The notes beneath the pieces were generated by a model. It had not been told where the DNA came from and ran no database searches. It saw nothing but the letters and a program-made list of their open reading frames with translations. DNA of 33,867 bases from contig JAATGT010000331.1 of the NCBI GenBank assembly GCA_015654525.1, forward strand, positions 1 through 33,867. Reading direction: 5' to 3'. Position 1 is the stretch's first letter, and each line of letters opens with the position of its first letter. The stretch comes from Bacteroidales bacterium (lineage in GTDB: Bacteria > Bacteroidota > Bacteroidia > Bacteroidales > Paludibacteraceae). A program made the position numbers and the translations under genes. Positions 10,319-32,520 of the stretch are shown in pieces.

Positions 10319-10490
10319 CTTCTACAGAGTATCCCTAGCTTTCGACAAGGTTCCCTAAGTCTTCTACAGAGTTTCCCGAGTCATCTACAGAATATCCCAA
10401 ATCTTCGATAGAGTTCCCCAAGTCTTCTACAAACTTCCCCAAGTCTTCTATAGAGTTCCCCAAGTCTTCTACAGAGTTCCCCAAATCCTA
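10319..10490. repeat. 21-bp tandem array A (about 8 units)
   Basis: The unit tcttctacagagttccccaa plus one base recurs from 10319 to the stop codon of the neighbouring gene. Starts of the tctacag core fall at 10363, 10384, 10405, 10426, 10447 and 10468, exactly 21 bp apart. The two leftmost units are more diverged. On the minus strand one frame reads the heptad DLGNSVE seven times with mostly third-base or conservative changes. That frame has a stop just before it and no ATG, and is out of frame with the adjacent gene. Confidence 0.85.
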
Positions 10491-10492
10491 TT

Positions 10493-11239
10493 TTAAGATT
10501 CTGTTTTAGTAGTAGTCGTAGTGCTGTCTGTTTTGGTTGAATCGTTTTTTTTAGTTGAGCGCGACTGTCCTACCTGTGATTTCAACGCACTAAAAGTAAA
10601 CTCTTTCAATTTTGCAGGATTGTCTTTAAATAGTGTTTTTCCTACCAACAGAATGTCTGCCAGTTTATCGTAAAAACTATTTAGTTGACCAATATTTTCC
10701 TGAACGATAAGTGCCCGATTCGATCTGATATCCTGTTGTTGTGTCTTCAAATCGGTCAGCAAGCTGACTTTAGTCTTTAGCGAACTAACTTTTTCATCCG
10801 TTAAACCTGCTTCCTTCAGTTGAGATAAATGATTGGTAATATTTGTATTTACCACTTTAAGCTTATCAATAACCGCAGTAATATCTCCATTATTACAAGC
10901 TGCCCTTAATGCTATAATGCCAAATGAAGCCGGTGTAAGTTGAGATTTTGTGAGATCAACATAGGCTTTCAGCGGGTCTGCCATAGAGTCTACCAGCTCT
11001 ATTTCAGTATAAATCTGTTCAGTTATCTTTTTTATCAACAGTGTTTCCGATTCGGGAGATACCAATTCATTTACACTGGCTAACTCCGTTTTTAGATTTG
11101 CTTCTAAAGGATCGGCAAATCGATTGGAAAAAGTAATAAAGAGTGTTTTTTCACGACTAAAACTTTGAAGAATCAATGCTCCGATAATGGGCAGATCTTC
11201 ATCTTTGCAGCTGTAACTTCGTTGGTTACTTTCTGACAT
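10493..11239 (-). CDS. Hypothetical protein, cytoplasmic, helical, with Ser/Thr/Lys tail
   Basis: I do not recognise this 248-residue protein. It has no signal peptide or membrane segment. The body looks mostly alpha-helical: residues about 60-220 are rich in Leu, Lys, Asp and Glu with coiled-coil-like spacing. It contains two Cys (CKDEDLP near residue 11 and ACNNGD near 114). The last 25 residues are low-complexity (repeated K, T, S, ending TTTTTKTES). The gene stands alone. Miniature element R2 lies on both sides, and a 21-bp tandem array begins 3 bp past the stop codon. The start is the ATG at 11239, with AT-rich leader and no Shine-Dalgarno. A link between protein and array is possible but unproven. 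Confidence 0.7.
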   Translation of the reverse strand: MSESNQRSYSCKDEDLPIIGALILQSFSREKTLFITFSNRFADPLEANLKTELASVNELVSPESETLLIKKITEQIYTEIELVDSMADPLKAYVDLTKSQLTPASFGIIALRAACNNGDITAVIDKLKVVNTNITNHLSQLKEAGLTDEKVSSLKTKVSLLTDLKTQQQDIRSNRALIVQENIGQLNSFYDKLADILLVGKTLFKDNPAKLKEFTFSALKSQVGQSRSTKKNDSTKTDSTTTTTKTES

Positions 11240-11268
11240 AATAATGATTTTTAAAAGATTAGTTATTT

Positions 11269-11366
11269 ATGTGAATCATTCGTTGAAAATAGTCCATAGT
11301 ATATTCTCTATGGGAAATAACTTTTAGAAACAAGATATACTTGTTTTCAACTTCTGATTTACACTA
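11269..11366. repeat. Miniature element R2, internally deleted copy c
   Basis: This 98-bp copy keeps both ends, atgtgaatcattcgttgaaa at the left and ttttcaacttctgatttaca at the right, as inverted repeats. It retains only fragments of the middle (atagtccatag, ctatgggaaataac). It lies upstream of the unknown gene and could overlap its promoter region. Confidence 0.65.
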
Positions 11367-11485
11367 TTTAATTTATTTTATAACCGCAATAAGTATAAGA
11401 GATTCGCTTTTATAATTTCGCAAAAACATATTTTTACAGCGAACTTATAAATAGTTACTGGATTGTTTATTTGAATTTAGCTCTC

Positions 11486-11549
11486 AACCACAAATTGCAC
11501 TAATTTTCACGAATACTAATTTTAGTGTGAATTTGTGTTATTAGTGGTT
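11486..11549. repeat. Imperfect palindrome of the accacaaattgcactaattt type
   Basis: The left arm aaccacaaattgcactaatt and the right arm, ending gtgttattagtggtt, form a 64-bp imperfect inverted repeat. Repeats of this wording (cacaaatt...cacgaat) are familiar in intergenic DNA of Bacteroidota, from general knowledge rather than a search. It lies in the 630-bp gene-free stretch between the unknown gene and the OmpA-family gene. Confidence 0.55.
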
Positions 11550-11672
11550 TATAATCTGTATTTCAATTTGTTTTGTTTATATGCTATTGAGAAATTAACT
11601 ACCTTGATCTTCCATTCCGATGATTCGAAATTGCAATGTTTTGTGTTAATCAGGTAAATCTGTTTTTAAAAT

Positions 11673-11769
11673 AAGAAAGAGCTGGAAATAAGGTTTGACT
11701 GTTGCGGCAGCAGCAACCGATATTTTAGCTATAACAAGGTTTTAAAAACCTTATTTCCATCTCTTTCTT
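11673..11769. terminator. Long hairpin downstream of the OmpA-family gene
   Basis: The arms aagaaagagctggaaataag plus gttt (11673-11696) and 11746-11769 are complementary over 24 bp with one mismatch. They enclose a 49-base loop that holds a smaller hairpin (gttgc...gcaac). It lies about 100 bp past the stop of the minus-strand OmpA gene and could end its transcript. The loop is long for a classic terminator, so a structured small RNA or mobile-element remnant is also possible. Confidence 0.4.
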
Positions 11770-11870
11770 TTCAAGTGTGTTTTTGCATATATTAGTTCAA
11801 GGATTTATAAAAAAACTCTATAATCTGGGAGAACATTCTATCTCGAGAGCATTTGAATCCGGTTATAAAT

Positions 11871-13019
11871 TTATTGGGCTGACACCAATTTCAGTTTAAC
11901 AAGCCTATTCGAAGATGCCTGACTGTAAGGTTGAACTTTATCACCATGCCATTCTGTAATAACGCGATCGGCACTTATGGAATATTCATCAATTAACAAT
12001 CTGGCTACTTCCTGAGCGCGCTTTGTTGATAGCCGTTTATTTACAGCCGCCGTACCGGTACTATTATCGGCATATCCGCTAATCAATATTCTGGCATCCG
12101 GATATGTATGCAAATAATCAACCGCCTTAGCTAAAGCTGCTTGTTGTTTCGGTGTTTTTATTTTGGTTTTGCCAATTGTATAAAACACCTCTGTTTCCAG
12201 GTCTGGAATTTGTGGTTTAACAACAGTTGCTTCTTTGGTTTCAACCACCGGTTTTGGCTCTTCAACTACAACCGGTTGAGGCGGAGTTACAGGTTCGGGA
12301 GCTGTTGGTTTTTCAACAATTTCCGGTTTCGACACTTCTGCAACTTTTTTTGATCTTTCGCGGAGATGATAAGTAATACCTACTGTAAGAGCGGGATAAG
12401 CATCAAGCTTAACACCGGTATTATCATTATTGTATTTATCTCCTACGATATTTGCTTCAGCAATCAGATTTAAATCAAGTTGTTTTGTAAGATGAAAATC
12501 ACCCTGAAGACCACCACGACCAACTGCACCAAACCAATCATCAGAAAAATCGGCTTTATTGCGGTGTGCAAGCCCTGCTCCTCCAAAAACACTAAGATCA
12601 AACACACGGTTCGGATTAAATCCTTCCATCCAACTACTCAGATTTACCGTTAGATCGGCTGTCAGGTTTTGTGAACCGAATGAATACCCATCGTAAGATC
12701 CATTTGCCTTTTTCTTCAGACGGACATCCGGCCAGTTATGATCCGCATATCCAAGCATAGCTCTTAATCCTATAACGTGGGTAAAATCGTATCCCACTAC
12801 AGCCCGTCCAATAAATCCTATATTACCGCGAAGCGAAAAAATATTATCGTGCTTTAACGAAAAAATATTATCCCCTTCACCCATAAACCAGTTTACACCT
12901 GCATTCGCACCAAGATACCATCCAGGTTGAAAAGTCCCGGAATTAATCTTTTCAGTTTCTTGAGAGTAAGTAACGAATACAAATCCCAAACACAAAATAG
13001 TAGCAATTACTTTTTTCAT
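11871..13019 (-). CDS. Outer-membrane protein with beta-barrel and OmpA peptidoglycan-binding domain
   Basis: A 382-residue exported protein. The signal peptide is MKKVIATILCLGFVFVTYSQ. Residues about 28-215 form an outer-membrane beta-barrel of the OmpA/OmpX type, with alternating aromatic/polar strands ending TVGITYHLRE. A Pro/Val/Glu-rich linker follows at about 225-265. The C-terminal OmpA-like domain (about 270-382) includes ISGYADNSTGTAAVNKRLST and RAQEVARLL, the peptidoglycan-binding signature. It should anchor the outer membrane to the cell wall. Its barrel is paralogous to the protein encoded at 13339-13992. The -10 to -40 region upstream is AT-rich with no clear box. Confidence 0.93.
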   Translation of the reverse strand: MKKVIATILCLGFVFVTYSQETEKINSGTFQPGWYLGANAGVNWFMGEGDNIFSLKHDNIFSLRGNIGFIGRAVVGYDFTHVIGLRAMLGYADHNWPDVRLKKKANGSYDGYSFGSQNLTADLTVNLSSWMEGFNPNRVFDLSVFGGAGLAHRNKADFSDDWFGAVGRGGLQGDFHLTKQLDLNLIAEANIVGDKYNNDNTGVKLDAYPALTVGITYHLRERSKKVAEVSKPEIVEKPTAPEPVTPPQPVVVEEPKPVVETKEATVVKPQIPDLETEVFYTIGKTKIKTPKQQAALAKAVDYLHTYPDARILISGYADNSTGTAAVNKRLSTKRAQEVARLLIDEYSISADRVITEWHGDKVQPYSQASSNRLVKLKLVSAQ

Positions 13020-13161
13020 ACTAGATAATTTTAAACATTAATTTTTTATTTTTAAAATCCATAATTGTGAAAATATAAACATGTTTTGCGATAGAATGTC
13101 AAGAGAGTTTTTTTAGAAAGAAAACAGTTTAAGTTCTTCACACTTAGACTGTATAACATGT

Positions 13162-13318
13162 GGCTGTATCAAAGGCACGCAAATAACGCAAACAACACAA
13201 ATTTTCGCAAATAAAATTTGTGAAGTAGAATGTTATTTGTTGAATTCCAATTTGATAAGATTGTGTTAATTTGCGTATTTTGCGTTATTTGCGTGCTAAA
13301 AAGACTTTTGAGACAGCC
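13162..13318. repeat. TIR-bounded miniature element ending in ggctgt-tcaaa
   Basis: The ends ggctgtatcaaa (13162-13173) and tttgagacagcc (13307-13318) are inverted repeats with one mismatch. Just inside, gcacgcaaataacgca (13175-13190) and tgcgttatttgcgtgc (13281-13296) are perfect 16-bp inverted repeats. Further pairing (acaaattttcgcaaataaaa against inner bases) gives a long hairpin. It lies between the stop of the 13339 gene and the OmpA-family gene, so it could terminate transcription. The ggctgtctcaaaag end resembles some insertion-sequence termini. Confidence 0.65.
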
Positions 13319-13338
13319 TTATAGTTTCTCAGCAGGCC

Positions 13339-13992
13339 CTACTTGGAAAAAAGGGTACCAGTACTACGAAAGTGATAACTCAGCCCTACTGTGAACGCGG
13401 TATAAACATCGAAAGGTAAAAAACCTGATTTATAATTATTATAGCTATCTCCCGTAAAATTAGTCTCGGCAATAAGATTCAGATCAACAAACGATGATAA
13501 ATGAAAATCGCCTTGTAAACCACCACGTCCGATATAACTAAACAAATCGTTACTGAAAGTAGCTTTATCGCGATGGGTTATGCCGGTTCCCGCAAATACA
13601 GAAAAATCAACTATCCGGTTGCGGTTGTAATAGGAAAACCAGTTACTCAAATTTACAGTCAGATCAACCGTCAACATCTGAGCATCAAATGAAATTGTCT
13701 TTAATGAACCATCGGAATTTTTAAACCTGGAATCGGGCCAATTATGGCTAGCATATCCCAGAAAACTTCGGATCCCCATAACGGGTGAAAGATTGTAGCC
13801 AGCAGTAACACGACCAATAAATCCTGTGCTTTGGGTTTTTGAATAGGTGGAATATCCTTCAGCCAGAAAAGTATTCAGACCCACATTTGTACCGATATAG
13901 GCATCCGGTTTGAAAATAAATCCTGAAATTTTTTGTGCACCAACCGCAATTGTAGACACCAAAAACAGCAACACTATAACTATATTTTTCAT
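13339..13992 (-). CDS. Outer-membrane beta-barrel protein, OmpA barrel paralogue without the OmpA domain
   Basis: A 217-residue exported barrel. The signal peptide is MKNIVIVLLFLVSTIAVGAQ. It shares landmarks with the barrel half of the 11871-13019 protein: GYNLSPVMGIRSFLGYASHNWPD against GYDFTHVIGLRAMLGYADHNWPD, and IGRGGLQGDFHL against VGRGGLQGDFHL. It ends at SYHFRSTGTLFSK, just where the larger protein begins its Pro-rich linker, so the periplasmic domain is missing. The two genes are in tandem with a miniature element between them. Either an ancestral duplication lost the OmpA domain here, or the single-domain form is older. Function is likely structural; no enzyme motif is visible. Confidence 0.9.
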   Translation of the reverse strand: MKNIVIVLLFLVSTIAVGAQKISGFIFKPDAYIGTNVGLNTFLAEGYSTYSKTQSTGFIGRVTAGYNLSPVMGIRSFLGYASHNWPDSRFKNSDGSLKTISFDAQMLTVDLTVNLSNWFSYYNRNRIVDFSVFAGTGITHRDKATFSNDLFSYIGRGGLQGDFHLSSFVDLNLIAETNFTGDSYNNYKSGFLPFDVYTAFTVGLSYHFRSTGTLFSK

Positions 13993-14083
13993 GTAGACGC
14001 AAAGACATTTTTTATTCCAACACCTGATAAGTAAGTAATAGGAATTAAATAATGTCCTATTTTTCAGAAAATCGTTAGACGAT

Positions 14084-14252
14084 ACGGTTGTAATTTCAAG
14101 TCCCCTTCAGGGGAACCAACGGTCAGCGACCGAAGGGAGATAATTAGGGGCGGTATTAAAGTCTACTTTCCGCCCCAAGCCCCTAAAGAGGATGTTAAAT
14201 AGTATCGTCTTTGAAAAATTAAAATGGTACATTATATTCATTCCATTACTTA
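14084..14252. repeat. Interspersed repeat R1, copy 2 (with 28-bp insertion)
   Basis: It matches positions 1-141 in the same orientation, apart from a few substitutions and 28 extra bases beginning aaccaacggtcagcgaccga. Those bases, with flanks, are identical to 7721-7765. The same submodule in two different repeat contexts suggests modular assembly or gene conversion. It lies upstream of the minus-strand barrel gene. Confidence 0.85.
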
Positions 14253-14370
14253 TATATTGTCTCTCTATTTTTCCTCTATAAATATAAATCTTTATTGTTA
14301 TAACAAGCGCTGTTGCTTTGTTGTTTATTTAACTTTAGCAATAAGAGTATTTATTCCCAATTTCATAATT

Positions 14371-14740
14371 ATGAAATTCAATTTCACACCCATTATATTT
14401 GATTTACCAACTATGAAATTCGATTTACCAACTATGAAATTCAATTTCACAACTGTTATATTCGATTTATAATACTATAAATTGATTTTATAATATGATA
14501 TTTTCGATTTATAATATGACAAATCGATTTTATAAACTATTATTTTCAATTTACAATATGATAAATTGATTTTATCAACTATTATTTTAGATTTACAATA
14601 TGATAAATCGATTTTATAAACTATTATTTTCGATTTACAATATGATAAATTGATTTTATCAACTATTATTTTCAATTTACAATATGATAAATCGATTTTA
14701 GAAACTATTATTTTCGATTTATTATATGATAAATTGCATT
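14371..14740. repeat. 21/42-bp tandem array B
   Basis: The right part repeats a 42-bp unit five to six times, with aaatcgattttataaactat and attttcgatttacaatatga as its two related 21-bp halves. The left part (14371-14472) is built from 21-bp units such as atgaaattcgatttaccaac. Plus-strand translation of 14371-14472 is a 33-residue open frame of heptads MKFDLPT / MKFNFTT / IIFDLPT. On the minus strand the right part stays open as KIIVDKI / NLSYCKS heptads. Neither frame looks like a normal gene. The DNA is almost pure A/T with A/T-tracts in phase with the helix. Confidence 0.85.
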
Positions 14741-14950
14741 TGGAGAATGTAAACAGCCATTAAACTCTTATATAAAAGTTTTTCTACGATGTCGTAAATA
14801 ACTCAATATAAACAAAGAAAACCATTTTTACGATTTAAGGTGTATTGAGTGACAATAATTTAAGAATACGGACAAGTGCCAATACCGGTAAAATGCATTT
14901 TTTCAGTCCTTTTTTTCTTATTTCAAATGCTCGTTAATTGTATTTTTTCA

Positions 14951-14958
14951 TACCTTTG
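14951..14958 (+). promoter_or_regulatory. Bacteroidota-type -7 promoter box for the YciI operon
   Basis: tacctttg fits the TAnnTTTG consensus and lies 28 bp before the YciI-like start codon, after the end of array B. A clear -33 TTTG partner at the usual spacing is not obvious. Confidence 0.55.
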
Positions 14959-14985
14959 TTACTCACTTATTAAATAAACACAGTT

Positions 14986-15270
14986 ATGTATATCATTCTT
15001 CTCAACTATACCCACGGTCTGGAAAAAATAGAAAAACATTTGGCTGAGCACCGCATTTTTCTGGACAAATATTATGCCCTTAATACGTTTATTTGTTCGG
15101 GGGCTCAAAATCCACGTACGGGTGGAGTTATTCTGTGTAAAGCCGACAGCAAAGCCGAAGTGGAACGTATAGTGTCGGAAGACCCGTTTAATATTCACGG
15201 TGCAGCCAGTTACAATATTATTGAGTTCTGCACAAGTAAGTTTGCACCGGCTTTCGAACCGTTTGTATAA
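14986..15270 (+). CDS. YciI-like (YCII-related domain) protein
   Basis: A 94-residue single-domain protein with the ferredoxin-like YciI fold. It begins MYIILLNYTHGLEKIEKHL, has the conserved HR pair in LAEHRIFLDKYY, a Gly-Gly strand (RTGGVILCKA), and the diagnostic SEDPF followed by an aromatic strand (ASYNIIEF). Family members are small cytoplasmic proteins, some with weak dehalogenase-like or isomerase-like chemistry on small molecules, mostly of unknown role. It is the first gene of a tight small-gene run with an AhpD-like and a TfoX-C protein. A promoter box precedes it. Confidence 0.85.
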   Translation: MYIILLNYTHGLEKIEKHLAEHRIFLDKYYALNTFICSGAQNPRTGGVILCKADSKAEVERIVSEDPFNIHGAASYNIIEFCTSKFAPAFEPFV

Positions 15271-15343
15271 CAGCAGATTTTAAACATAAAGTCAGCATAT
15301 CATAAAAAGACGCACGAATCACTTCTATAAAAACAAATAAGGT

Positions 15344-15649
15344 ATGAAAACTACACTGGACACATTTCAACACGAAGCCCCCGAAGTAGCGAAAGCTTTC
15401 GATGGACTTATCGATGCATTAAAATCGACTACCGGACTGGATGGCAAAACTAAACAGCTGGTATATATTGGCATCAAAGCATCGACAGGCGATAGCACAG
15501 CAGTATTTTTCCATGTAAAAATGGCTAAGAAACTGGGAGCTACGCGCGATGAGATTAAAGATACGATTTTGATAACACTCACTGTGTGCGGGCTAAAAGG
15601 TGTATCCACCTGCCTGCAAACGGCACTGGATGCTTACGATAACGATTAA
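15344..15649 (+). CDS. Carboxymuconolactone decarboxylase / AhpD-like protein lacking the redox Cys pair
   Basis: A 101-residue all-helical protein of the CMD family. The segment LVYIGIKASTGDSTAVFFHVKMAKKLGATRDEI carries the family His (FFHVKMA), and residues in the final helices (TLTVCGLKGVSTCLQTAL) fit as well. In AhpD-type alkylhydroperoxidases the pattern is CxxCxxxH. Here the two Cys positions before the His are Asp and Ala, so a disulfide-based peroxidase cycle is not possible at that site. Cys residues do occur near the C-terminus (residues about 83 and 91). It lies 73 bp after the YciI gene and 18 bp before the TfoX-C gene, so co-transcription is likely. Substrate unknown. Confidence 0.85.
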   Translation: MKTTLDTFQHEAPEVAKAFDGLIDALKSTTGLDGKTKQLVYIGIKASTGDSTAVFFHVKMAKKLGATRDEIKDTILITLTVCGLKGVSTCLQTALDAYDND

Positions 15650-15667
15650 TAAAAATTTAAAGATACG

Positions 15668-15934
15668 ATGATGGAAACCGATCTTTATAATCAACCCAAT
15701 ATAGGAAAAGATACTGCCACCAAACTGATACAGGTGGGCATTAATAACTATGCCGAACTGAAAGCTGCAGGTACTGAACAGGCTTTTCTGCGCCTGCAAA
15801 CACTCGATCCCGGTGCATGCATCCATTTATTACAGGCACTGGAAGGTGCCATTGAAGGTATTCCCAAAACGCAACTGTCGGCAGAGAAAAAACAGGAATT
15901 ACGCGAGTTTCATCGATTGGCAAGCCGGAAGTAA
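15668..15934 (+). CDS. TfoX C-terminal domain protein
   Basis: An 88-residue protein matching the C-terminal domain of TfoX/Sxy competence regulators: NIGKDTATKLIQVGINNYAE, then AFLRLQ and LDPGACIHLLQALEGAIEGI, the family's hallmark Cys-containing helix. The N-terminal TfoX domain is absent, as in many stand-alone family members. The domain has a helix-hairpin-helix-like N-terminal part and is assumed to bind DNA or protein; a competence role here is not supported by other genes. The second Met (15671) is an equally possible start. It is likely co-transcribed with the YciI and CMD genes. Confidence 0.88.
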   Translation: MMETDLYNQPNIGKDTATKLIQVGINNYAELKAAGTEQAFLRLQTLDPGACIHLLQALEGAIEGIPKTQLSAEKKQELREFHRLASRK

Positions 15935-15949
15935 ACCTCTGACAAAATC

Positions 15950-16012
15950 ATGAAAAAGTTCAACTATAAAAAAATAGATGCGTTTGTAACCGCCAACTCC
16001 GATGAATTGCAT
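15950..16012 (+). pseudogene. Possible PhzF-family N-terminal remnant
   Basis: A short frame from the ATG at 15950 reads MKKFNYKKIDAFVTANSD, very like the start of PhzF-type isomerases (xKKIDAFxxxxSxGNPA). It then breaks off where GNPA would follow. The frame continues only as unrelated residues overlapping the HXXEE gene. If right, this is a scar of a deleted PhzF gene whose start was left behind. The match is short, so it may be chance. Confidence 0.3.
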
Positions 16013-16043
16013 CAGATTAACCCCCACATTAAAAAATCATATT

Positions 16044-16550
16044 ATGTCAGAACCGGATTACAACAAACAGTTACTTATTGCTGGTACTCTTTTCACACTT
16101 CATAATACAGAAGAAGCCATCGGATTTTCACATTTTATTTTTCCTGCCATCATCCCCTTGCCTATTCGTCCTCATAATGCCGATGCTATGATTTGGTCGG
16201 TAGGATTAATTACCATTATTGCATGGATGCTTATTTTATGGGCAAATACTCAAACAAAAAGATCAAACCGCAAAAACCTGCTGCTCATTTTTGTATCGGT
16301 TTTTGTTGCCAATGCTTTTTTCCCACACATACTGGGGACTATTGTCCTGCAACGTTATTTTCCGGCCGTAATAACATCAGTCATACTATATCTTCCTTAT
16401 TCCTTTTGGATTCTTCCCAAACTATATCGGTCGTACACAGATCGCCATCAGTTTTTTATCATTATAATAGGTGGATTAAGCCTGGCTATTTGCCTGGGAA
16501 TTGTGCTCCATTTTTTCATCAATATCATTTCAAGATTTTTAGTAAACTAA
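16044..16550 (+). CDS. HXXEE-domain membrane protein
   Basis: A small integral membrane protein, 168 residues from the ATG at 16044. The first helix contains LFTLHNTEEAIGFSHFIFP, which includes the HxxEE motif that names the family. A second conserved His segment appears as NAFFPHILGTIV. About five hydrophobic helices follow, with Arg/Lys-rich loops (TKRSNRKN). An upstream ATG at 16002 would add 14 residues (MNCIRLTPTLKNHI) that are not family-like, so the internal start is preferred. The conserved His/Glu residues within helices suggest a membrane metalloenzyme or transporter, but the function is unknown. The GNAT gene starts 6 bp downstream. Confidence 0.82.
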   Translation: MSEPDYNKQLLIAGTLFTLHNTEEAIGFSHFIFPAIIPLPIRPHNADAMIWSVGLITIIAWMLILWANTQTKRSNRKNLLLIFVSVFVANAFFPHILGTIVLQRYFPAVITSVILYLPYSFWILPKLYRSYTDRHQFFIIIIGGLSLAICLGIVLHFFINIISRFLVN

Positions 16551-16556
16551 AAATTA

Positions 16557-17036
16557 ATGAACGAGCTTAACTACAAAAGATTGACTACTGCTGAACTTAC
16601 AGTCATAAAAACTCTGTGGGAAGAACTAAATCAGATTCATTTAGCCGATTCGGTTTATTTCAAAGAGCATTATGTTTCTTTTTCGTTTGCAGAACGAAGT
16701 GCCGACTGGTTCAAACTACCTGAGGAGAACTTTCATTTGTTAGTTGCAGAAACAAAAGATTCGGTTCCGGTTGGATACTGTATTTCAACCATTGATGCAG
16801 ACCGGAAGAAGGGAGAAATCGATTCATTATTTGTTTCAAAGGAATACCGGCGAAAAGGAATCGGTGAATTATTGATCAAAAAAAGTATGAAATGGTTAAA
16901 CGACAAACAATGTATTTCTATTCGGTTATCAGTTAGTTATGGTCATGAAAAAGTGCTGGGTTTTTATCAGAAACTGGGTTTTTATCCACGTTCAACCACG
17001 TTGGAATTAAAGAATAATCACACTCACAAGTGCTAA
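16557..17036 (+). CDS. GNAT-family N-acetyltransferase
   Basis: A 159-residue single-domain acetyltransferase. Motif A, the acetyl-CoA pyrophosphate loop, is YRRKGIGELLIKKSMKWL, with the R-x-x-G-x-G pattern, preceded by the strand GEIDSLFVS. A C-terminal Y-x-K-L-GF segment (VLGFYQKLGFYPRS) is typical. The acyl acceptor cannot be predicted. It starts 6 bp after the HXXEE gene stop, so the two are probably translated from one message. A 330-bp gap follows with no gene but with a palindrome and promoter box for the next unit. Confidence 0.9.
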   Translation: MNELNYKRLTTAELTVIKTLWEELNQIHLADSVYFKEHYVSFSFAERSADWFKLPEENFHLLVAETKDSVPVGYCISTIDADRKKGEIDSLFVSKEYRRKGIGELLIKKSMKWLNDKQCISIRLSVSYGHEKVLGFYQKLGFYPRSTTLELKNNHTHKC

Positions 17037-17228
17037 GAATAAAGATGATATTTGCTTAACAATAACTTAAAACAAATAAATGAAGTAACGAATAAGGTTC
17101 AATCAAATACACAAACAATTAGCATCCAGCAGAATCAGCCACAAGGTCAGAATTAGTCCGATAACTGAGTATATAAAATCAATTTAATCAAACAGCATCA
17201 CTTTTATTAAAAATTAATTAACCGGCAC

Positions 17229-17307: not shown

Positions 17308-17368
17308 CACATAAAAAAAATGAAATGTGCAGTTCATTTGCCTGCATTAATCCTTTCTGAAATAAATA

Positions 17369-17836: not shown

Positions 17837-17880
17837 ACCAAGTAAGTCGGTCAGACTATTATCTACATTCAAAATCAACT

Positions 17881-18050: not shown

Positions 18051-18072
18051 TGGCTTATTTAAAACCCGAACT

Positions 18073-24459: not shown

Positions 24460-24463
24460 CTTT

Positions 24464-25488: not shown

Positions 25489-25656
25489 ACATTTTCCAAT
25501 TGAAAGTTTTCTGTCGACAATTGATAACTTAATGAGTACTCGAAACGGGATAAAAAATTTGATTGCTTAATCATTACCCCGTTTAATAGTAAGACGTAAA
25601 TGGAAGAAAATTCTTACACGGAAGGAGAAAAAATATTGTAATTATTGAATCGTACC

Positions 25657-26433
25657 TTAAAGGATACGCTTTATTACCCGGAGTTTGTGAGTATACTCCC
25701 CAGTTTGAGCAGAAATGACACCTTGTGAGTCAATGGATTCAATCTTCACCCAACCCGAAGCATGAATAAGCTGATGAGAATTGAGTAAAATGCCTACATG
25801 AGTGATTTTTCCATCCGCATTTTCGAAAAAAGCCAGATCACCAGCTTTAGCTTCAGATAAAAAACCGATAAGTTGACCACAACTAACCTGTTGTGAAGCA
25901 TCACGCGGTAACTGAATGCCACACATCGAAAAAACAACTTGCACAAAACCTGAACAATCAATGCCTAAAAGCGATTTTCCACCCCACAGATAGGGAGCAT
26001 TGAGATATTGCCGGGCCAGCGAGATGAGACGTTCACCACTTTTTTCTGTACCCTGATGTAATAGGATCGGATCAAAAAGAAAGTTATTGTTATCAATTTT
26101 GAGTTCTATACCATTCATTCCAACCAGTTTGCTACCCCCGGGTAAAGTCAGCTTGTCGCCGGAACTAAGATCCTCGCCCTCCAGCAACGGAATGCAAACG
26201 CAGGATGGGTTGGAACCAATGAGCTGCAATGCATCGGCATCGGTCAGAACACGAATCATCTTGCGATCAGCCCAGCCAATGTAATTATCAGCCAGATTTC
26301 GCAACAAAATCCATCGCTCACGTGTTTCAAGTATCTCTACAAGTTCGCCAAAAAGAAGTTGTGAAGTCATTTCGCTGCGTTCGCTATCGCTTTCGCGAAG
26401 TGGAACAAGAGGGAGAATTACGATTCCGGTCAT
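25657..26433 (-). CDS. NlpC/P60 (C40) cell-wall peptidase with SH3-like N-terminus
   Basis: A cysteine peptidase that cleaves peptidoglycan stem peptides. Counting from the ATG at 26454, the catalytic residues are C167 in LLGIDCSGFVQ, H219 in KITHVGIL and H231 in LIHASG. The N-terminal 130 residues are SH3b-like (LFGELVEILETRERWILLRN, YIGWADRKMI). There is no signal peptide or lipobox, as in many Bacteroidota members whose export is unclear. The upstream ATG at 26454 would add 7 residues (MLLNPVS) outside the family's usual start, so 26433 is preferred, but both are possible. The HD-phosphohydrolase gene is divergent, 137 bp from the 26454 ATG. Confidence 0.93.
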   Translation of the reverse strand: MTGIVILPLVPLRESDSERSEMTSQLLFGELVEILETRERWILLRNLADNYIGWADRKMIRVLTDADALQLIGSNPSCVCIPLLEGEDLSSGDKLTLPGGSKLVGMNGIELKIDNNNFLFDPILLHQGTEKSGERLISLARQYLNAPYLWGGKSLLGIDCSGFVQVVFSMCGIQLPRDASQQVSCGQLIGFLSEAKAGDLAFFENADGKITHVGILLNSHQLIHASGWVKIESIDSQGVISAQTGEYTHKLRVIKRIL

Positions 26434-26591
26434 AGATACGGGGTTTAAAAGCAAAATTTCCTGCTATTGCAAGTGTTTTTCCATACAAAAATAAGGAAAG
26501 TTTAATGATAATGTTTCCATTAGGATTTTTTTTAGTAATTTTCCGCGATTTTTGATTTTAGCGATCTCATTCTTATTTCAACAGTTCCTAT

Positions 26592-28631
26592 ATGAGCATA
26601 AAAATTACTCAACCCCAACTCAAACATGCCGAAAAAGCAGGACTATTTGCAATTTTAGTTGTGCTTATCGTACTTTTGTATCCATCCGGCGATAAATTCA
26701 AGTATCAATTTGAAATTGGGAAACCCTGGTCATATGGATTGATTACAGCCTCATTTGATTTTCCTATTTATAAAAACGATCAGCAAATAGGAAAAGAGAA
26801 AGAAGAGATTCTGCAAGACTACACTCCGTTTTATAAGTTAGATACGGCAGTAATGAATCACCAACTCAAAAAGCTTTACAGCGACTTACAAAAAAAAGGA
26901 GAAGGTTCATCCCGTATTCCGAACTATATTAAGAATAAATTTAAATCGATTTATTCTGTGGGTATCATTTCGGTAGATGAATATAACAAGTTAATCAACG
27001 ACAAACGTGGCAATATTTCGTGCATACTGCCCAATCGTGTTACACATGCCATGCCTTTGGCTAATGTGTATACAGCGCGAACTGCTTACGAAGAAATAAT
27101 AAACGATGCACCTGCCACACTCAAATCCTATGACATTAATTTATACCTTTCGGAAAATTTAAAATATGATAGCATCACGTCAGAAATGGCGAAAAACGAT
27201 TTATTGAAAAATCTTTCACTCACGTCGGGCATGATTCAATCGGGCGAACGAATTATCGATCGCGGTGAGATTGTGACTCCGGGTATTTATCAGGTGTTAC
27301 ATTCGCTTAAAATAGAATCCGAGAAGCGTAATTCGTCTCTGCAACAGTCATCCATTGTAGTGATTGGTGAAATAGTGATGATATTAGGTTTAATAACGCT
27401 ACTTTTCTTATACCTCTACCTGTTTCGGCCGCGAATTTATGAAAGTATCAGTAATCTAATTTTTATCCTGCTACTTATCTTTATGATCGTAGGGCTTACG
27501 TCTGTTACTATCAATTTTACGACATTGAACTATTACATGGTTCCATTCGCATTATTGCCTATAATTATCCGTGTTTTCTTTGACTCCAGAACGGCTCTGT
27601 TTGCACATATCATCACGGTGCTTATTATTTCGTTTATGGTGGATAATGCTTTTCAATTTATTGTTATACAAATTGCCATTGGTATGGCAGCCGTTTCCAG
27701 CCTGAAAGACATGTCACAACGCTCACAGTTGGCACAAACGGCGTTATATATATTCATGAGTTACTTTGTAATGTATCTGGCCTTCGAATGTATTTCCGAG
27801 GGAGATGTATTACGCATTAACTGGCAGCATATTTTTTACTTTGGCGTTAGTAGTGCTTTCCTGTTGTTTGCCTATGTACTGATTTATCTTTTCGAAAAGA
27901 TATTCAATCTGGTTTCGAGTGTTACCCTGGTAGAACTGACCAATATCAATAGTGATTTAATGATGGAATTTTCTGAGCGGGCACCCGGTACTTTTCAACA
28001 CTCATTGCAAGTATCGAACCTAGCCACCGAAGCTGCCAAAAAGATCAATGCAAACAGCTTGCTGGTACGTACGGGAGCACTATACCATGACATTGGTAAG
28101 ATGAGACATCCCGAATATTTTATAGAAAACCAGATGGGTGGAAAAAACCCACTGACGGAATGCGACTTTGAAGAAGCTTCGAAAATTGTGATAAACCACG
28201 TTACTGACGGGGTCGAAATAGCTAAGAAGAGCCACCTGCCGGAACAGATCATCAACTTTATAGGCACACATCACGGATTTGGGAAAACTAAATATTTCTA
28301 CAATTCCTACATCAATGCCAACCCGGATAAAAAGCCGGATGAAGCCGTGTTTACCTATCCAGGTCCGCTGCCGAACAATAAGGAAACCGCCATATTAATG
28401 ATGGCCGATGCTGTGGAAGCCCGATCGAGAAGCCTGACTGAATACACCGACGAGAGTATAGACGAAATGGTGGAAAGCATGATAGACGGACAAATAGCTG
28501 AAGGAGCGTTTAAAGAAGCCCCCATTTCATTCCGCGATGTGGAAACGGTAAAATCAGTGTTCAAAGAAAAGATCAAAAACATTTACCACAACAGAATAAA
28601 ATATCCCGAGATAAACAAAAAGAAATGCTAA
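26592..28631 (+). CDS. 7TM-HD phosphohydrolase, PgpH-like c-di-AMP phosphodiesterase
   Basis: A 679-residue protein with the order expected of PgpH. An N-terminal helix is followed by an extracytoplasmic 7TMR-HDED domain (about 50-250), then seven membrane helices (about 255-440) and a cytoplasmic HD domain (about 460-660). The HD motif is in ALYHDIGKMRHPEYF (H499, D500), preceded by the metal-site His of FQHSLQVSNLA. The family degrades the second messenger cyclic di-AMP to pApA and so tunes osmotic and wall homeostasis. The length matches the family. The activity is inferred from architecture. The gene is alone, divergent from the NlpC/P60 gene, and ends in a bidirectional terminator. Confidence 0.94.
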   Translation: MSIKITQPQLKHAEKAGLFAILVVLIVLLYPSGDKFKYQFEIGKPWSYGLITASFDFPIYKNDQQIGKEKEEILQDYTPFYKLDTAVMNHQLKKLYSDLQKKGEGSSRIPNYIKNKFKSIYSVGIISVDEYNKLINDKRGNISCILPNRVTHAMPLANVYTARTAYEEIINDAPATLKSYDINLYLSENLKYDSITSEMAKNDLLKNLSLTSGMIQSGERIIDRGEIVTPGIYQVLHSLKIESEKRNSSLQQSSIVVIGEIVMILGLITLLFLYLYLFRPRIYESISNLIFILLLIFMIVGLTSVTINFTTLNYYMVPFALLPIIIRVFFDSRTALFAHIITVLIISFMVDNAFQFIVIQIAIGMAAVSSLKDMSQRSQLAQTALYIFMSYFVMYLAFECISEGDVLRINWQHIFYFGVSSAFLLFAYVLIYLFEKIFNLVSSVTLVELTNINSDLMMEFSERAPGTFQHSLQVSNLATEAAKKINANSLLVRTGALYHDIGKMRHPEYFIENQMGGKNPLTECDFEEASKIVINHVTDGVEIAKKSHLPEQIINFIGTHHGFGKTKYFYNSYINANPDKKPDEAVFTYPGPLPNNKETAILMMADAVEARSRSLTEYTDESIDEMVESMIDGQIAEGAFKEAPISFRDVETVKSVFKEKIKNIYHNRIKYPEINKKKC

Positions 28632-28635
28632 ACTG

Positions 28636-28675
28636 CAACGTCCAACCCTGTGAATAGAGTTGGACGTTGTTATTT
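28636..28675 (+). terminator. Bidirectional terminator between HD and TonB-receptor genes
   Basis: caacgtccaac (28636-28646) and gttggacgttg (28659-28669) are perfectly complementary around a 12-base loop, with t-rich sequence after. It lies 4 bp after the HD-gene stop and 25 bp past the end of the convergent TonB-receptor gene, so it can end both. Confidence 0.8.
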
Positions 28676-28699
28676 GACTCCACAATACATTGTTCTGAT

Positions 28700-31105
28700 T
28701 TACATCTTTATAATAATACCAATAGTAGGTAAGACAGTTCCGCTCAAATTATCGATAGTGCGCAACAAGTACTTGCCGGAATTATTGGGATCGGTTTGAG
28801 GTGTATATACTTTATTACCCGAAGCATCGACTGTACCGGTATCAAGATTGGTATAAACAGGTGCTCCGCGGGTTTTGAAATTATAAGCATTCTGAATGTC
28901 GGTGTAAAGATTGAGCACCCATTTTTTGAAATAAAACTCCTTATCGATACGGAGATCTAGTTGATGGGTGTCGGGTTTGCGCAAAGAATTGAAGCGGGAG
29001 TAATCCAAAACAGGTTTGTGATTGATATCCCAAACAGATTTAACTGCCGAAAGAGGATCGATAGGCGTATAAGGAGCACCGCCTACAAAACGCCAACGCA
29101 TGGCGACATTCCAGTTACGAGGGAGTTTATAACGACCTATAAGGTTGAACAAATGCCGGGTATCCCAGGCAGAAGGCAGATATACACCAGCAACATTAGT
29201 AAATTCACTCCGAAAATAAGTATAAGTAGCCGTCACGTTCAGTCTTTTCATTTCCATGATTTTATAAAGCACTTCCAGTCCATAAGCACGTCCATTGCCT
29301 GTGGAAACTATCTGTTCGTCACCCACCTCCCCGTAATCGGTTCCTTTACTGGCAATACTTATCCCATCAGTTACCGAGAGCGGATAATCATTATAGCCTT
29401 TGTAAAATGCCTCTACACTCAAGCGCATATTTTCCATAGGCCGGTATTCCAGCCCGGCAATGGCCTGGTTGGAGATGATGTAACGTAAATCTTCCGTTTT
29501 ATTCACCAAAATGCCGAGTGCATCGCGGTAGCCGAGTGTGGTGTAAGCCGGTTGCTGAGCGTAACGCCCTATGTTGGCATTCAGATCCAAATCAGGCGAA
29601 AGGGCGTAAGACACCGAGAAGCGTGGCGAAAACTGATTAAGCGGATTGGTCATATTCCGGTTATAATCGAGACCGGCCATATTGATGCCCAACGATAGTT
29701 TCAGACGTTCGTCCAACAGCTCTTTGGAAGCCTGCGCAAAAGCCTGATAGCCGAACACATTAATGTTGGTACTGTAAAGCAAATCAGTGGCTGTATTATT
29801 TAAAAGAATCTGTCGGTTGGTGTAATTACTATAGTGCGCATACTTCATGCCGCCACCAAAAGACAGTTTCACCGGCAGATCGGGATAGTTACGTTCAAAG
29901 CGGACTTTGTTTTCGGCTTCATCAGAACTATAATCGGACCTTTTAAGGCTGTCGGTATTATTATCCTTGTATTTAAAATTACTATTGTGTAGCATATTGC
30001 GGCTCAACACCCAAGTATCGTAATGATTATCTGCAAAATGTTTGTAGACTATTCCCAAAGCATAATCCCACTGTTTGTATGATGGCAGATAGGACAAAAT
30101 ATAAGCCTGATTCTCGGTCGGGTTTTTGATTCCGGTGTTCAGTTTACTGTTGTCAATAGCACCGATTCCGATAAAACTGATCTCATTTCGGTTATCAATG
30201 CGGGTTTTAAGTTTAAACTGAAAGTCATTATAGGTCGGCAAAAAGGGTAAACCCAGCGCCGAAAACAGCAGCTGAAGATAAGATTGCCTGGCTGATACAA
30301 TAAACGTGGAACTTTTCCCAATAGGTCCATCAAGCGTCAGAGCAGCATCAGAAGCACCTACGGAAAGCTTGCTGTGGATGCGGTCTTTGCTACTGTCTTT
30401 CTGGCGGATATCCATCACCGAACTGAGCGCATTGCCTTTGTCGGCCGGAAAGGCACCGGTATAGAAATTAATTTCGCGTACAAAGTCGGGATTGATAATG
30501 CCCACCACACCACCCGAAGCACCTTGTGTGGTAAAGTGATTGATAAGTGGAATTTCAATGTCATCAAGATAAAACACATTCTCCGACGGGCCGCCTCCAC
30601 GTACAATCAGGTCGTTGCGATTGGGATCGGTGGCTCCTACGCCGGGCAAGGTCTGTATTACCTTGGAAACATCGCGGTTAGCACCGGCAGCTTTCTCAAT
30701 ATCCTGTACTCCGATGGATAATGCAGAGAGCGGACTTTCAATCTTTCTGACATTAAAGTTCTGATGGACGGTAACCTCACCCAACTGCACGGCAGATTCT
30801 TCTACCGCCACATCGATAAAGGTAGTTTGATTGCCCTGGACCTGAAACTCGGACGAAACAGTGCTATGATAACCGATAAGGCTAACGACTAATCGGTTAA
30901 AACCGGGATCGACTGCCGTAAAGTTGTAATTACCTTCGGCATCGGATGTAGAGCCCACATCGGTACCCTGGATAAGAATAGAAGCATACGGAATAGACTG
31001 ATTCGTTTTAGCGTCATAAATGCGTCCTTTGATATTGCCTTTTTGAGCAAAAGCTTGTGCCGAAAGCATGAGAATAAAAAGCAAAAGAGTATAGCTATAC
31101 CTCAT
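28700..31105 (-). CDS. TonB-dependent outer-membrane receptor with carboxypeptidase-like domain
   Basis: An 801-residue receptor. The signal peptide is MRYSYTLLLFILMLSAQAFA. Residues about 22-110 form a CarboxypepD_reg-like domain (GNIKGRIYDAKTNQSIPYAS, LVVSLIGYHSTVSSEF). The plug domain spans about 120-245 (VIQTLPGVGATDPNRNDLIVRGGGPSENVF, a typical LPGVxxxDxxxxDLIVRGGxPxEN). The remainder is a 22-strand-type barrel ending in IGIIIKM. It takes up a substrate across the outer membrane using TonB energy. It is not next to a SusD gene, so it may be a siderophore- or cofactor-type receptor rather than a SusC, but the ligand is unknown. No Fur or riboswitch site was recognised upstream. Confidence 0.95.
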   Translation of the reverse strand: MRYSYTLLLFILMLSAQAFAQKGNIKGRIYDAKTNQSIPYASILIQGTDVGSTSDAEGNYNFTAVDPGFNRLVVSLIGYHSTVSSEFQVQGNQTTFIDVAVEESAVQLGEVTVHQNFNVRKIESPLSALSIGVQDIEKAAGANRDVSKVIQTLPGVGATDPNRNDLIVRGGGPSENVFYLDDIEIPLINHFTTQGASGGVVGIINPDFVREINFYTGAFPADKGNALSSVMDIRQKDSSKDRIHSKLSVGASDAALTLDGPIGKSSTFIVSARQSYLQLLFSALGLPFLPTYNDFQFKLKTRIDNRNEISFIGIGAIDNSKLNTGIKNPTENQAYILSYLPSYKQWDYALGIVYKHFADNHYDTWVLSRNMLHNSNFKYKDNNTDSLKRSDYSSDEAENKVRFERNYPDLPVKLSFGGGMKYAHYSNYTNRQILLNNTATDLLYSTNINVFGYQAFAQASKELLDERLKLSLGINMAGLDYNRNMTNPLNQFSPRFSVSYALSPDLDLNANIGRYAQQPAYTTLGYRDALGILVNKTEDLRYIISNQAIAGLEYRPMENMRLSVEAFYKGYNDYPLSVTDGISIASKGTDYGEVGDEQIVSTGNGRAYGLEVLYKIMEMKRLNVTATYTYFRSEFTNVAGVYLPSAWDTRHLFNLIGRYKLPRNWNVAMRWRFVGGAPYTPIDPLSAVKSVWDINHKPVLDYSRFNSLRKPDTHQLDLRIDKEFYFKKWVLNLYTDIQNAYNFKTRGAPVYTNLDTGTVDASGNKVYTPQTDPNNSGKYLLRTIDNLSGTVLPTIGIIIKM

Positions 31106-31216
31106 AGTACATTGGGGTTAGTATTTTGATTCTATCTAATAACGGCAATGGAATACGAAATGTTTATTTTGCTGTCTGCAGCTAGTAGTAGAAGAGGATC
31201 AGTGATAGCCGTTCAC

Positions 31217-31287
31217 AAAAAAAGTATCCCGTAGATGTAGCCGGTTGTCGTAGTAATGTTCTACGCCAATCAGCCTTTACCTGCGGG
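31217..31287 (-). terminator. Nested hairpin with T tract, candidate terminator of the 31426 gene
   Basis: Plus-strand cccgtag (31228-31234) pairs with ctgcggg (31281-31287), ggttg (31243-31247) with caatc (31267-31271), and cgtag (31249-31253) with ctacg (31261-31265), a three-tier stem. Read on the minus strand it is followed by seven T's (31217-31223), as in an intrinsic terminator for the unknown gene. The G-T pairs favour plus-strand folding, so the direction is unsure. The rest of the 31106-31425 gap is a simple gattagttgttagttacgag tract and nothing else I can name. Confidence 0.4.
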
Positions 31288-31425
31288 AGATTAGTTGTTA
31301 GTTACGAGTTAGACAAGTAGCTATCAGAAAATTTATTTGTTGAAAAGATTTACACTGCAAAGTAAAGCTTTATTTGTTACAAAAAGATGTCAATGAGATT
31401 ACAAATTTGTAAACGAAATTAGTGA

Positions 31426-31977
31426 TTAACGATTAGTTGGAGTGCTTGCTATTTTATTCACGGCATCGTACACAGGCACGAGATAACCATTTTCGAAGCG
31501 ACACAGTACACAAATATTACCCACCGGTTTGGCACTTACCCACTCCAACGATAGTTCGGTACCATCATATAACACTTTCGACAGAAAAGAGTTTCCGACT
31601 TTAAACAGCTGATCATAGTCCTGTGTCTCGAAGCGTAGTTTTGCTTTGTCAAAGTTCCCGGTTTGAAACGTACAGCGATATATTGCCTGCTCGGCACATT
31701 CGGTACGCAAATACAGGGCATGTTGTTGCAAAGCCGGTGCTGTGCTCTTTTGCGGAAAGATATGAGTAGGCGATAACTGCCCACTGAATACCACCACATC
31801 ATCCTGTTTGATTTCCATAACCGAAATATGATCGGTAAGTAGCTGCGAAACATGGATCAGATTGTTATAATGAAAAAACTCTTCCCAGTTATTGAAGATG
31901 GTGGCATCTTTAGGCATATAGCTGCCAAGTACCAGCTCGGCGGCTACGCCTGTAAATTGTATGGTAATGTCGGACAT
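31426..31977 (-). CDS. Hypothetical protein, cytoplasmic, beta-rich
   Basis: I do not recognise this 183-residue protein. It has no signal peptide or membrane helix. Beta-type segments alternate through it (ITIQFTGVAAELVLGSY, HISVMEIKQDDVVVFSG, YRCTFQTGNFDKAKLRFETQ). It has three Cys. The C-terminus ends KIASTPTNR, encoded next to a tract of gattaacgattag-like repeats. The start ATG at 31977 follows 110 bp of ordinary AT-rich sequence, beyond which array C begins. Codon use looks ordinary and the frame is long, so it is likely a real gene, but no function can be assigned. A terminator-like hairpin lies about 140 bp downstream. Confidence 0.6.
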   Translation of the reverse strand: MSDITIQFTGVAAELVLGSYMPKDATIFNNWEEFFHYNNLIHVSQLLTDHISVMEIKQDDVVVFSGQLSPTHIFPQKSTAPALQQHALYLRTECAEQAIYRCTFQTGNFDKAKLRFETQDYDQLFKVGNSFLSKVLYDGTELSLEWVSAKPVGNICVLCRFENGYLVPVYDAVNKIASTPTNR

Positions 31978-32091
31978 CGGAGATAATTGATTAAATGGAG
32001 TGCAAATTTACGCAAAATATATGCACACTACCGAGATTTAGCCCCACAATCGAAAATGAGTAGAAACGGATAGCACATATATGCAAACAGA

Positions 32092-32520
32092 TCTTAAAGA
32101 AATCGCATCGGACTATTAAGGAGAATGGTTGGACTGTTAAGGGATCGTATCGGATATGTTAGAAAAAGGGTAGGACGATAAAGAAATAGGGTAGGAATCG
32201 TTAATTATGAGGTAGGACAACAAAGAAATGGCAGACGACTGTTAAGGAAAACGGTTGGACTGTTAAGGGGAATGGGCGGACAGCAAAGAAATCAGGTTGG
32301 ACATGGAAGAAATAGGATCAGACAAGGAAGAAGTAGCACCGGATAGGGAAGAAATAGAAGTGAACAGGAAAGAAATAGCATCGGACAGACAAGAAATAGA
32401 GGTCGACTCGAAAGAAATAGCATTGGACAAGCAAGAGAAAGAGCTGAACAGATAAGAAGTAGCTCCGAACGGTAAAGAAAAAGCATCGAATGCATAAGAA
32501 ACAGGGGTGAACGGAAAGAG
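32092..32520. repeat. 21-bp tandem array C (about 20 units)
   Basis: A purine-rich plus strand repeats a 21-bp unit of the type cagataagaaatagcatcgg plus one base about 20 times, with every unit differing at several positions. The most constant words are aagaaatag and a final gga or gaa. Units early in the array carry ctgttaagg instead. One plus-strand frame reads heptads such as KEIASDR, QEIEVDS, KEIALDK and EEIGSDK, interrupted by stop codons. Two minus-strand frames stay open for 67-76 codons with a hydrophobic heptad, a by-product of the 21-bp period. No gene is called here. Confidence 0.9.

Follow-up and report, generated by a model that had tools for sequence, protein, structure and literature searches.

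Features of the window

The window, i.e. the whole stretch of 33,867 bp analysed here (contig JAATGT010000331.1 of assembly GCA_015654525.1, a Bacteroidales bacterium of the Paludibacteraceae), holds three tandem arrays, A, B and C (Table 1). Tandem Repeats Finder reported array A at 10319-10484 (period 21, 7.9 copies), array B at 14358-14741 (periods 21, 42, 63, 84 and 126) and array C at 32237-32463 (periods 21 and 42). A lag scan widened array C to 32096-32517, and stacking placed its units in a single register over the full extent given in Table 1. The three procedures together confirm the claim of the first-pass annotation that three arrays with unrelated units keep a 21-bp register. Across the whole window and all lags from 8 to 119, at least 70 matches per 126 positions were reached only at lags 21, 42, 63, 84 and 105.

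Table 1. Tandem arrays of the window and two genes next to them.
Feature	Coordinates	Strand	Description
Array A	10319..10490	.	8 units of 21 bp, consensus CTTCTACAGAGTTCCCCAAGT, no significant dyad
248-aa protein gene	10493..11239	-	read as helical, K/S/T-rich tail
Array B	14358..14744	.	A/T-rich, 9 double units of 42 bp, marginal dyad
183-aa protein gene	31426..31977	-	no Pfam match; 5' end 119 bp from the start of array C
Array C	32092..32520	.	about 20 units of 21 bp, purine-rich

Self-identity at lags 21 and 42 was 0.74 and 0.78 for array A, 0.58 and 0.80 for array B, and 0.57 and 0.59 for array C. Base composition differs between the arrays as first described (A, 44% GC; B, 18% GC; C, 72% purine). 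The earlier wording of an exact 21-bp period holds for the register, but the halves of the double unit of array B read as about 20 and about 22 bp, and the periods found genome-wide are 21/42 and 41/82 bp. In array C the patches AAGAAAt and GGA are kept in every unit and the bases between them vary more. The dyad test gave P 0.27 for array A and P 0.035 for array B, and was not significant for array C.

The arrays lie between genes, as had been stated: in the gene calls of this analysis no ORF of at least 100 aa overlaps any of them, and a single 82-aa ORF (14224-14472) overlaps array B. Array A adjoins the 3' end of the 248-aa protein gene, about 5 bp past its stop codon; the region upstream of that gene has no standout lag of the 21 class. 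Array C is flanked by the 183-aa protein gene and a tautomerase gene. At the orthologue of the 183-aa gene in the close relative G016 another gene lies 44 bp upstream, and no array is found there.

Period spectrum and classification

The sample of the own genome comprised 942 kb, about 23% of the genome. Among its arrays of period 15-100 bp, 25 of 31 lay near 21, 42, 63 or 84 bp; without the window and the stretch of contig C58 (locus L003), which were chosen for their arrays, the latter for its copy of array C, the proportion was 21 of 27. The corresponding count was 12 of 14 in G016 and 0 of 6 in 396 kb of cyanobacterial loci. One dinucleotide shuffle of 737 kb yielded no arrays, versus 29 in the real sequence. 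Two pairs of records covering the same locus (L234 = L046 and L002 = L003) were each counted once. BLAST among the arrays found just five pairs alike, and 9-base words gave few matches between arrays. The proposal of one period kept with free sequence thus extends to both genomes, and the broad spread of periods lacking an excess at 21, named beforehand as the outcome that would speak against it, did not occur in the part of the genome sampled.

Regarding their setting, 17 of the 37 arrays of the 21 class lie between tandem genes, 7 between divergent and 3 between convergent genes, 9 are at edges and 1 is inside a gene. A terminator role was considered and dropped, since the gaps holding arrays are divergent at roughly the rate seen in background gaps of 150 bp or more (325 tandem, 111 divergent, 45 convergent).

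The first-pass annotation knew of no named class of this kind; one has been described, namely non-coding tandem repeats in bacteria that keep a constant size (20-21 nt) while their sequence varies (Subirana and Messeguer 2021, PMC8161180, which cites an earlier paper by the same authors, J Bacteriol 2020). According to that article, single species from many bacterial groups have repeats of 20-23 nt, a genome carries several unrelated, species-specific families, the correspondence to two helical turns is remarked upon, a nucleoid protein or a small RNA is put forward as role, and for some Bacillus the repeats of one species have a short characteristic sequence in common. Arrays A, B and C belong to this class: A and C have 21-bp units and B has units of 42 = 2 x 21 bp, and both genomes carry many unrelated arrays of the same size (the 25 of 31 and 12 of 14 above). 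Relative to the published class, the present arrays additionally show a 41/82-bp class, frequent dyads, copies of whole arrays and a recurring neighbour gene family; the main text of PMC8161180 contains no word beginning with Bacteroid, Paludibacter, palindrom or hairpin.

Genes behind the arrays

The new observation is that arrays of the 21 class (41, 42, 82 or 83 bp) recur in front of genes for DUF6261 (PF19775) proteins. In all 14 such genes one of these four values was the strongest repeat lag of the upstream region, versus 26 of 361 control genes and 0 of 27 in a second control set. The 14 genes, from Paludibacter-type genomes, Parabacteroides distasonis, Prevotella nigrescens and two faecal contigs, are every member in the fetched sequence, one of them (L141) cut by a contig end. 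The rule was framed on strong loci and six genes (L178, L242-L246) joined later; four of the 14 signals are weak (scores 17-28), including a 41-bp lag at L178 (score 17) that came from a more sensitive scan. In Prevotella nigrescens the array contains the annotated start, and the in-frame ATG at residue 47 was taken instead; the starts at L066, L245 and L246 were likewise chosen in this analysis. Palindrome centres upstream of the 14 genes were 41±1 bp apart 30 times (1.5 in shuffles) and 20.5±1 bp apart 6 times (1.5 in shuffles), and the palindromes differ even between two DUF6261 proteins that are 44% identical.

DUF6261, a name that also appears in work on Streptococcus, had 21 matches in the own genome and 11 in G016. 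A single-protein query found none in viral contigs. When the DUF6261 profile was searched against solved structures it matched 319 sequences; the 60 matches listed were mostly cytochrome b562 and its fusions, the strongest among them being a Tet4 variant obtained by design (three stretches, E 1.9e-14). These matches were read as helical composition and rejected as a clue to function.

Two further families, H1 (genes with a CarboxypepD_reg C-terminus) and H3, were discovered by looking beside arrays, with loci L003, L233 and L239 fetched for array similarity, and their counts come from this biased sample: the top upstream lags were 21, 43, 62, 63 and 21 in five of five H1 genes and 42, 84 and 42 in three of three H3 genes. 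On iteration the H1 profile began to collect TonB receptors, presumably because of the common CarboxypepD_reg domain, and it was abandoned for a narrow H1 set. Profile comparison gave no sign of homology between DUF6261 and H1 (probability 2.8%) or between H1 and H3 (0.6%). One H3 and one H1 protein searched against plasmids had no match. No DUF6261, H1 or H3 gene lies downstream of 25 of the 37 arrays of the 21 class, 8 of these 25 being at edges of fetched sequence.

None of the three window arrays stands upstream of a DUF6261, H1 or H3 gene. Six window proteins were scanned and none is a DUF6261 member, nor does any of the 21 own-genome matches lie on the window contig (C157); the 248-aa neighbour of array A has no detectable relation to DUF6261 (profile probability 0.35%) or H1 (1.1%), and neither neighbour of array C is an H1 gene. 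Array A has one other match in its own genome (C228:4582-4721, minus strand, 74% over 140 bp). Array B has another copy there (C342:14696-14928, 81% over 233 bp) and a weak, A/T-rich match to an H3 locus. Array C has a colinear paralogue (C58:22113-22509, 74%) that sits 357 bp upstream of an H1 gene, and it is 70% identical over 131 bp to part of the array upstream of the H1 gene of genome G052. Judged by these alignments, array C is a copy of an array that stands before an H1 gene.

Conservation of spacing

The period stays close to an even number of helical turns (21, 42, 41 and 82 bp), with the sequence differing between arrays. Array C and its C58 paralogue differ by 86 mismatches, which cluster in certain columns of the unit, and by BLAST gaps (2, 2, 19 and 2) whose net effect is a shift by one 21-bp unit; the array pair L138/L148 has 48 mismatches and no gap, and L050/L179 are 75% identical with no gap over the 168 bp compared, the arrays themselves measuring 219 and 244 bp. 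In these three pairs, in which 16-25% of bases differ (about 176 substitutions), the net phase is unchanged apart from a single complete 21-bp unit, whereas in 9546 background intergenic columns 304 indels accompanied 2119 substitutions, a ratio of roughly one to seven. The constraint on spacing proposed earlier is supported, because diverged pairs keep phase while the intergenic background gains indels. Conservation within the repeat unit is column-specific.

A neutral process (slippage, template switching or a nuclease) might instead duplicate DNA by two helical turns at a time, leaving arrays without function. Such a process would suit arrays of free sequence that turn over: each of the three window arrays is matched once elsewhere in the same genome, array C is missing at the orthologous place in G016, and two array families are found again in G016 beside other genes. 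The earlier suggestion of a copying process acting on period fared unevenly. Counted per lag, short two-copy duplications located away from arrays are more frequent at 20-22 bp (7 of 60 over three lags) than at 23-39 bp (12 over 17 lags), but there is no enrichment at 40-43 bp (2 of 60), and most of these duplications have other periods. Neutral copying also conflicts with the phase held by diverged arrays and leaves the 41/42-bp lag at all 14 DUF6261 genes unexplained; it is considered rather unlikely.

Symmetry and RNA folding

Dyad-symmetric units (P<0.05) occur in 18 of 39 arrays tested, above all in 41-bp arrays; the dyad was not significant in the other 21, A and C included. A promoter-like TAnnTTTG box precedes the array in 6 of 14 DUF6261 loci (0.97 in shuffles) and follows it, ahead of the gene, in 4 of 14 (1.00 in shuffles), so the relation of array and promoter is not fixed. 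An arrangement with the array always between promoter and gene had been seen in 8 loci and failed with 14. A count of compensatory changes was set aside because array palindromes were mixed with others.

The arrays might act as RNA, as 5' leaders or separate transcripts whose rows of hairpins regulate translation or bind a protein, a reading that corresponds to the small-RNA proposal of Subirana and Messeguer. On both strands, 6 of 8 DUF6261 arrays out-fold shuffles (z -3.1 to -8.7), array B does so on the minus strand over a 150-base piece (z -3.1), and in six loci the box lies ahead of the array. Against this, pieces of arrays A and C fold no better than shuffles, the box stands between array and gene in four loci, no Rfam family exceeds its cut-off in the window, and dyad mispairs in the sense of the gene do not favour G-U over A-C (10 vs 17 in DUF6261 loci, 44 vs 80 in all 16 loci). 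A role as RNA is rated improbable.

Iteron, CRISPR and coding readings

Iterons and ParR-type centromere arrays bind protein and, like the present arrays, are direct repeats spaced near two helical turns, but they have one sequence per replicon and lie beside a replication or partition gene. Here dozens of arrays of unrelated sequence are spread over one genome, and no replication or partition protein is among the scanned neighbours of the window arrays. A reading as iterons of plasmid type, or as centromere repeats bound by a Rep or ParR-like protein, is rated very unlikely. CRISPR arrays likewise consist of regular repeats, each a few tens of bp long, but the units here are contiguous, with no unique spacers.

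Heptad-repeat peptides, suggested earlier because 21 bp is seven codons, are hardly credible: although mechanical ORFs of 100 aa or more span at least half of 10 of the 37 arrays of the 21 class, most of these ORFs sit mainly inside the array, 1 of 37 arrays is inside a larger called gene and no window array lies within an ORF of that length, and the reading is unsupported because paralogue mismatches are even over codon positions (27/32/27 for C/C58, 15/15/18 for L138/L148) and 41-bp arrays are not multiples of three, the frame shifting with each unit in 41- and 43-bp arrays, while two frames are open simultaneously in L148.

Proposed function and significance

The reading preferred here, held at close to even confidence, is that the arrays are phased protein-binding platforms. 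Each unit would be the site for a protein, most simply a dimer; with the helical spacing fixed, copies would be able to line up next to each other along the same face of the DNA, and the bound copies could form a nucleoprotein block controlling the neighbouring gene where one exists. The first candidate for the binder would be the product of the neighbouring gene itself, but the differing palindromes of two DUF6261 proteins that are 44% identical fit poorly with such recognition. Array C may be an H1-type array copy parted from its gene, and arrays A and B may likewise be free-standing or decayed copies.

More speculatively, and with somewhat less than even confidence, a two-part system of Bacteroidales can be proposed, in which a multicopy, probably helical protein (DUF6261 and its analogues) has a row of dyads in front of its gene. 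The sequence would be free and the 41-bp (four-turn) spacing held, each copy would carry a private palindrome read by shape and phase, not by sequence, and free arrays such as those of the window would be copies parted from their genes.

As described in PMC8161180, the class comes with no partner gene and no experimental handle. The recurring DUF6261 neighbour in culturable Bacteroidales makes it directly testable what might require a two-turn repeat without fixed sequence, and offers a clue to a Pfam family whose function is unknown.

Repeat arrays and their periods

All three arrays of the window (33.9 kb, 38% GC) were detected by TRF and are real, and the only lags of the window above 70/126 were 21, 42, 63, 84 and 105, all arising from arrays. 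Array C holds about 20 units in one register, yet adjacent units share only 57% base identity. The source genome (4.16 Mb in 361 contigs) lies near Paludibacter, its HD-domain protein showing 81-82% identity with three Paludibacter sp. records. Coordinates are listed in the table.

Coordinates of arrays and other features (L numbers, fetched sequence stretches)
Feature	Sequence	Coordinates
Array A	window	10319-10490
Array B	window	14358-14744
Array C	window	32092-32520
Direct repeat beside array A	window	9908-10269
Paralogous genes directly left of array B	window	11871-13992
Transposase region (transposase, 13313-13774)	L003	12950-14210
120-bp array	L243	2012-2407
7-/8-bp arrays	L048	4063-4339, 9675-9883
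7-/8-bp arrays	L050	17110-17462, 14824-14902

A lag scan was applied to 942 kb of the genome (one contig in four between C3 and C311, limited to the first 20 kb of each; C1, C2 and the window; two further C87 stretches; and part of C58, picked for its copy of array C) and found 48 arrays; the first 737 kb gave 29, and one dinucleotide shuffle of the same 737 kb none. Among the arrays with periods of 15-100 bp, 25 of 31 fell in 20-22, 41-43, 62-64 or 82-85 bp (the 21-class; binomial P = 9e-16 if periods are taken to be evenly distributed, a rough guide only), and 21 of 27 did so after removal of the window and C58. For G016, a single-contig relative of 3,685,504 bp, the share was 12/14 in 800 kb; the densities of 21-class arrays were 26.5 per Mb in the source genome and 15.0 per Mb in G016. 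None occurred in three further genomes of the genus (104, 81 and 124 kb) or in 396 kb of cyanobacterial loci, and two short 22-bp arrays were present in 200 kb from Prevotella nigrescens and Parabacteroides distasonis. The excess at 21 bp thus extends genome-wide; the broad spread of periods that the first-pass annotation had named as counter-evidence was not found. That annotation knew of no named class of this kind, a statement that does not hold: a class of bacterial tandem repeats that share one unit size (20-21 nt) and vary in sequence is in print (Subirana and Messeguer 2021, PMC8161180), and the window-type arrays fit it in unit size, in their number per genome, in having unrelated sequences and in lying outside coding regions.

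Tandem arrays of 7 and 8 bp, often within a few bp of both flanking genes, look like a class apart; among 12 of at least 60 bp in two genomes, 10 lay between same-direction genes, one was intragenic and one was at an edge.

Genes downstream of the arrays

When array-adjacent proteins were compared, one family, DUF6261 (PF19775), recurred downstream of several 41-bp arrays; among 1380 sampled genes, 33 had a 21-class array no more than 400 bp upstream. The DUF6261 set comprised the 14 genes present in the retrieved sequence: nine Paludibacter-type (six from the source genome, two from G016, one from JADGPS010000001.1), two from P. distasonis (records of one strain), one from P. nigrescens and two from faecal contigs deposited as unverified phage. 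The top lag in the 500 bp upstream was 41, 42, 82 or 83 in 14/14, weakly so in L178, L244, L245 and L246 (scores 17-28); control genes had such a top lag in 26/361 cases in two Paludibacter-type genomes and in 0/27 in Prevotella and Parabacteroides stretches. TRF reported a 42-bp repeat (4.0 copies) ahead of one P. distasonis gene and a 41-bp repeat (3.6 copies) ahead of the P. nigrescens gene, where it overlaps the annotated start. It reported no repeat in contig L245 or before the second P. distasonis gene, and in L246 nothing but a 23-bp repeat. Directly upstream of the P. nigrescens 41-bp array lies a 120-bp x 3.3 tandem array (98% matching).

DUF6261 copy number tracks array density across five sampled genomes, with 21 matches in the source genome, 11 in G016, and 0, 2 and 1 in G005, G023 and G001. 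The family was present in 18/40 relatives and in 2/61 genomes drawn across the phylum, the source genome being one of the two. No published account of the pairing of arrays with DUF6261-type genes was found in a search with poor coverage of subscription journals, and a poor literature search for 41-/42-bp repeats together with three genera gave none with repeat terms among the papers listed.

Some 21-, 43- and 62-bp arrays precede genes of family H1 (CarboxypepD_reg at the C-terminus). Upstream lags were 21-class in 5/5 H1 loci (L003, L048, L135, L185, L233) and in 3/3 loci of family H3 (L179, L175, L239; fn3 match in one of three members), which is weaker evidence since both families were found beside arrays, the L185 array falls short of the standard threshold, and L003, L233 and L239 had been selected because their arrays resemble others. 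PDB matches of the DUF6261 profile are helical bundles, and from their sequences we read the DUF6261, H1 and H3 proteins as probably helical.

No DUF6261, H1 or H3 gene lies downstream of arrays A, B or C. The C58 copy of array C precedes an H1 gene by 357 bp, and a G052 relative (70% over 131 bp) also lies upstream of an H1 gene; array C itself adjoins none. Array A adjoins the 3' end of a gene for a 248-aa protein matching neither DUF6261 nor H1, and array B matches an H3-associated array weakly (71% over 90 bp). Next to array A lies a direct repeat of about 185 bp in two copies, bearing CCGTAGGAC / CCTACGGG palindromes. Immediately left of array B stand two tandem paralogous beta-barrel genes (47% identity), one of which carries an additional OmpA domain. 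The C58 stretch holds an IS200-like Y1 transposase with REP-like repeats on either side, which contain short TCCCTACGGGA-type palindromes.

Spacing under divergence

Elsewhere in the source genome, every window array matches a single further place (C in C58, B in C342, A in C228). Array C and its C58 copy are colinear with 86 mismatches, BLAST gaps of 2, 2, 19 and 2 amounting to a net one 21-bp unit, and unrelated flanks beyond the array. The L138 and L148 arrays differ by 48 mismatches and 0 gaps; those of L050 (source genome) and L179 (G016) align ungapped at 75% over 168 bp. Background intergenic sequence (9546 columns, source genome versus G016) showed 2119 substitutions and 304 indels, a rate that predicts about 25 indels for the compared pairs. 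This contrast is to be read knowing that BLAST local alignment is biased toward alignments without gaps, that C/C58 took four gap openings, and that gene conversion is a possible alternative source of the agreement. Short duplications outside arrays were broad in period, with some excess at 20-22 bp (7/60) and none at 40-43 bp (2/60). A copying step of about 21 bp, the other proposal of the first-pass annotation, may generate arrays, as the former count suggests, although the breadth of periods and the latter count speak against it. Diverged pairs and duplication periods together favor a limit on spacing. Sequence within an array is not free, since C/C58 mismatches differ in number from column to column of the unit: columns of the AAGAAA and GGA patches have 1-3 in 18-19 comparisons (one column has 5), and the three columns that vary most have 8-10 in 19.

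Dyad symmetry and possible function

Dyad symmetry was significant (P<0.05, column-permuted controls) in 18/39 arrays, with about 2 expected; it was marginal in array B (P 0.035) and not significant in arrays A (P 0.27) and C (P 0.20). Upstream of DUF6261 genes, palindrome centers were 41+-1 bp apart 30 times and 20.5+-1 bp apart six times, versus 1.5 each in shuffles; four of five off-phase distances were near chance, and 92.25 had 4 versus 0.8. Pairing over 52 palindromes, whose centers had been chosen for pairing, was 0.69 at position 1, 0.90-0.96 at positions 2-5 and at most 0.50 from position 8 outward.

Action of the arrays solely as leader RNA is disfavored because the position of the TAnnTTTG box varies (before the array in 6/14 DUF6261 loci versus 0.97 in shuffles, after it in 4/14 versus 1.00); folding supports structure in 6/8 DUF6261 arrays but not in arrays A and C, and the G-U test lends no support. 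Function is inferred here from pattern: whole-turn spacing together with dyads suggests that proteins may sit on one face of the DNA.
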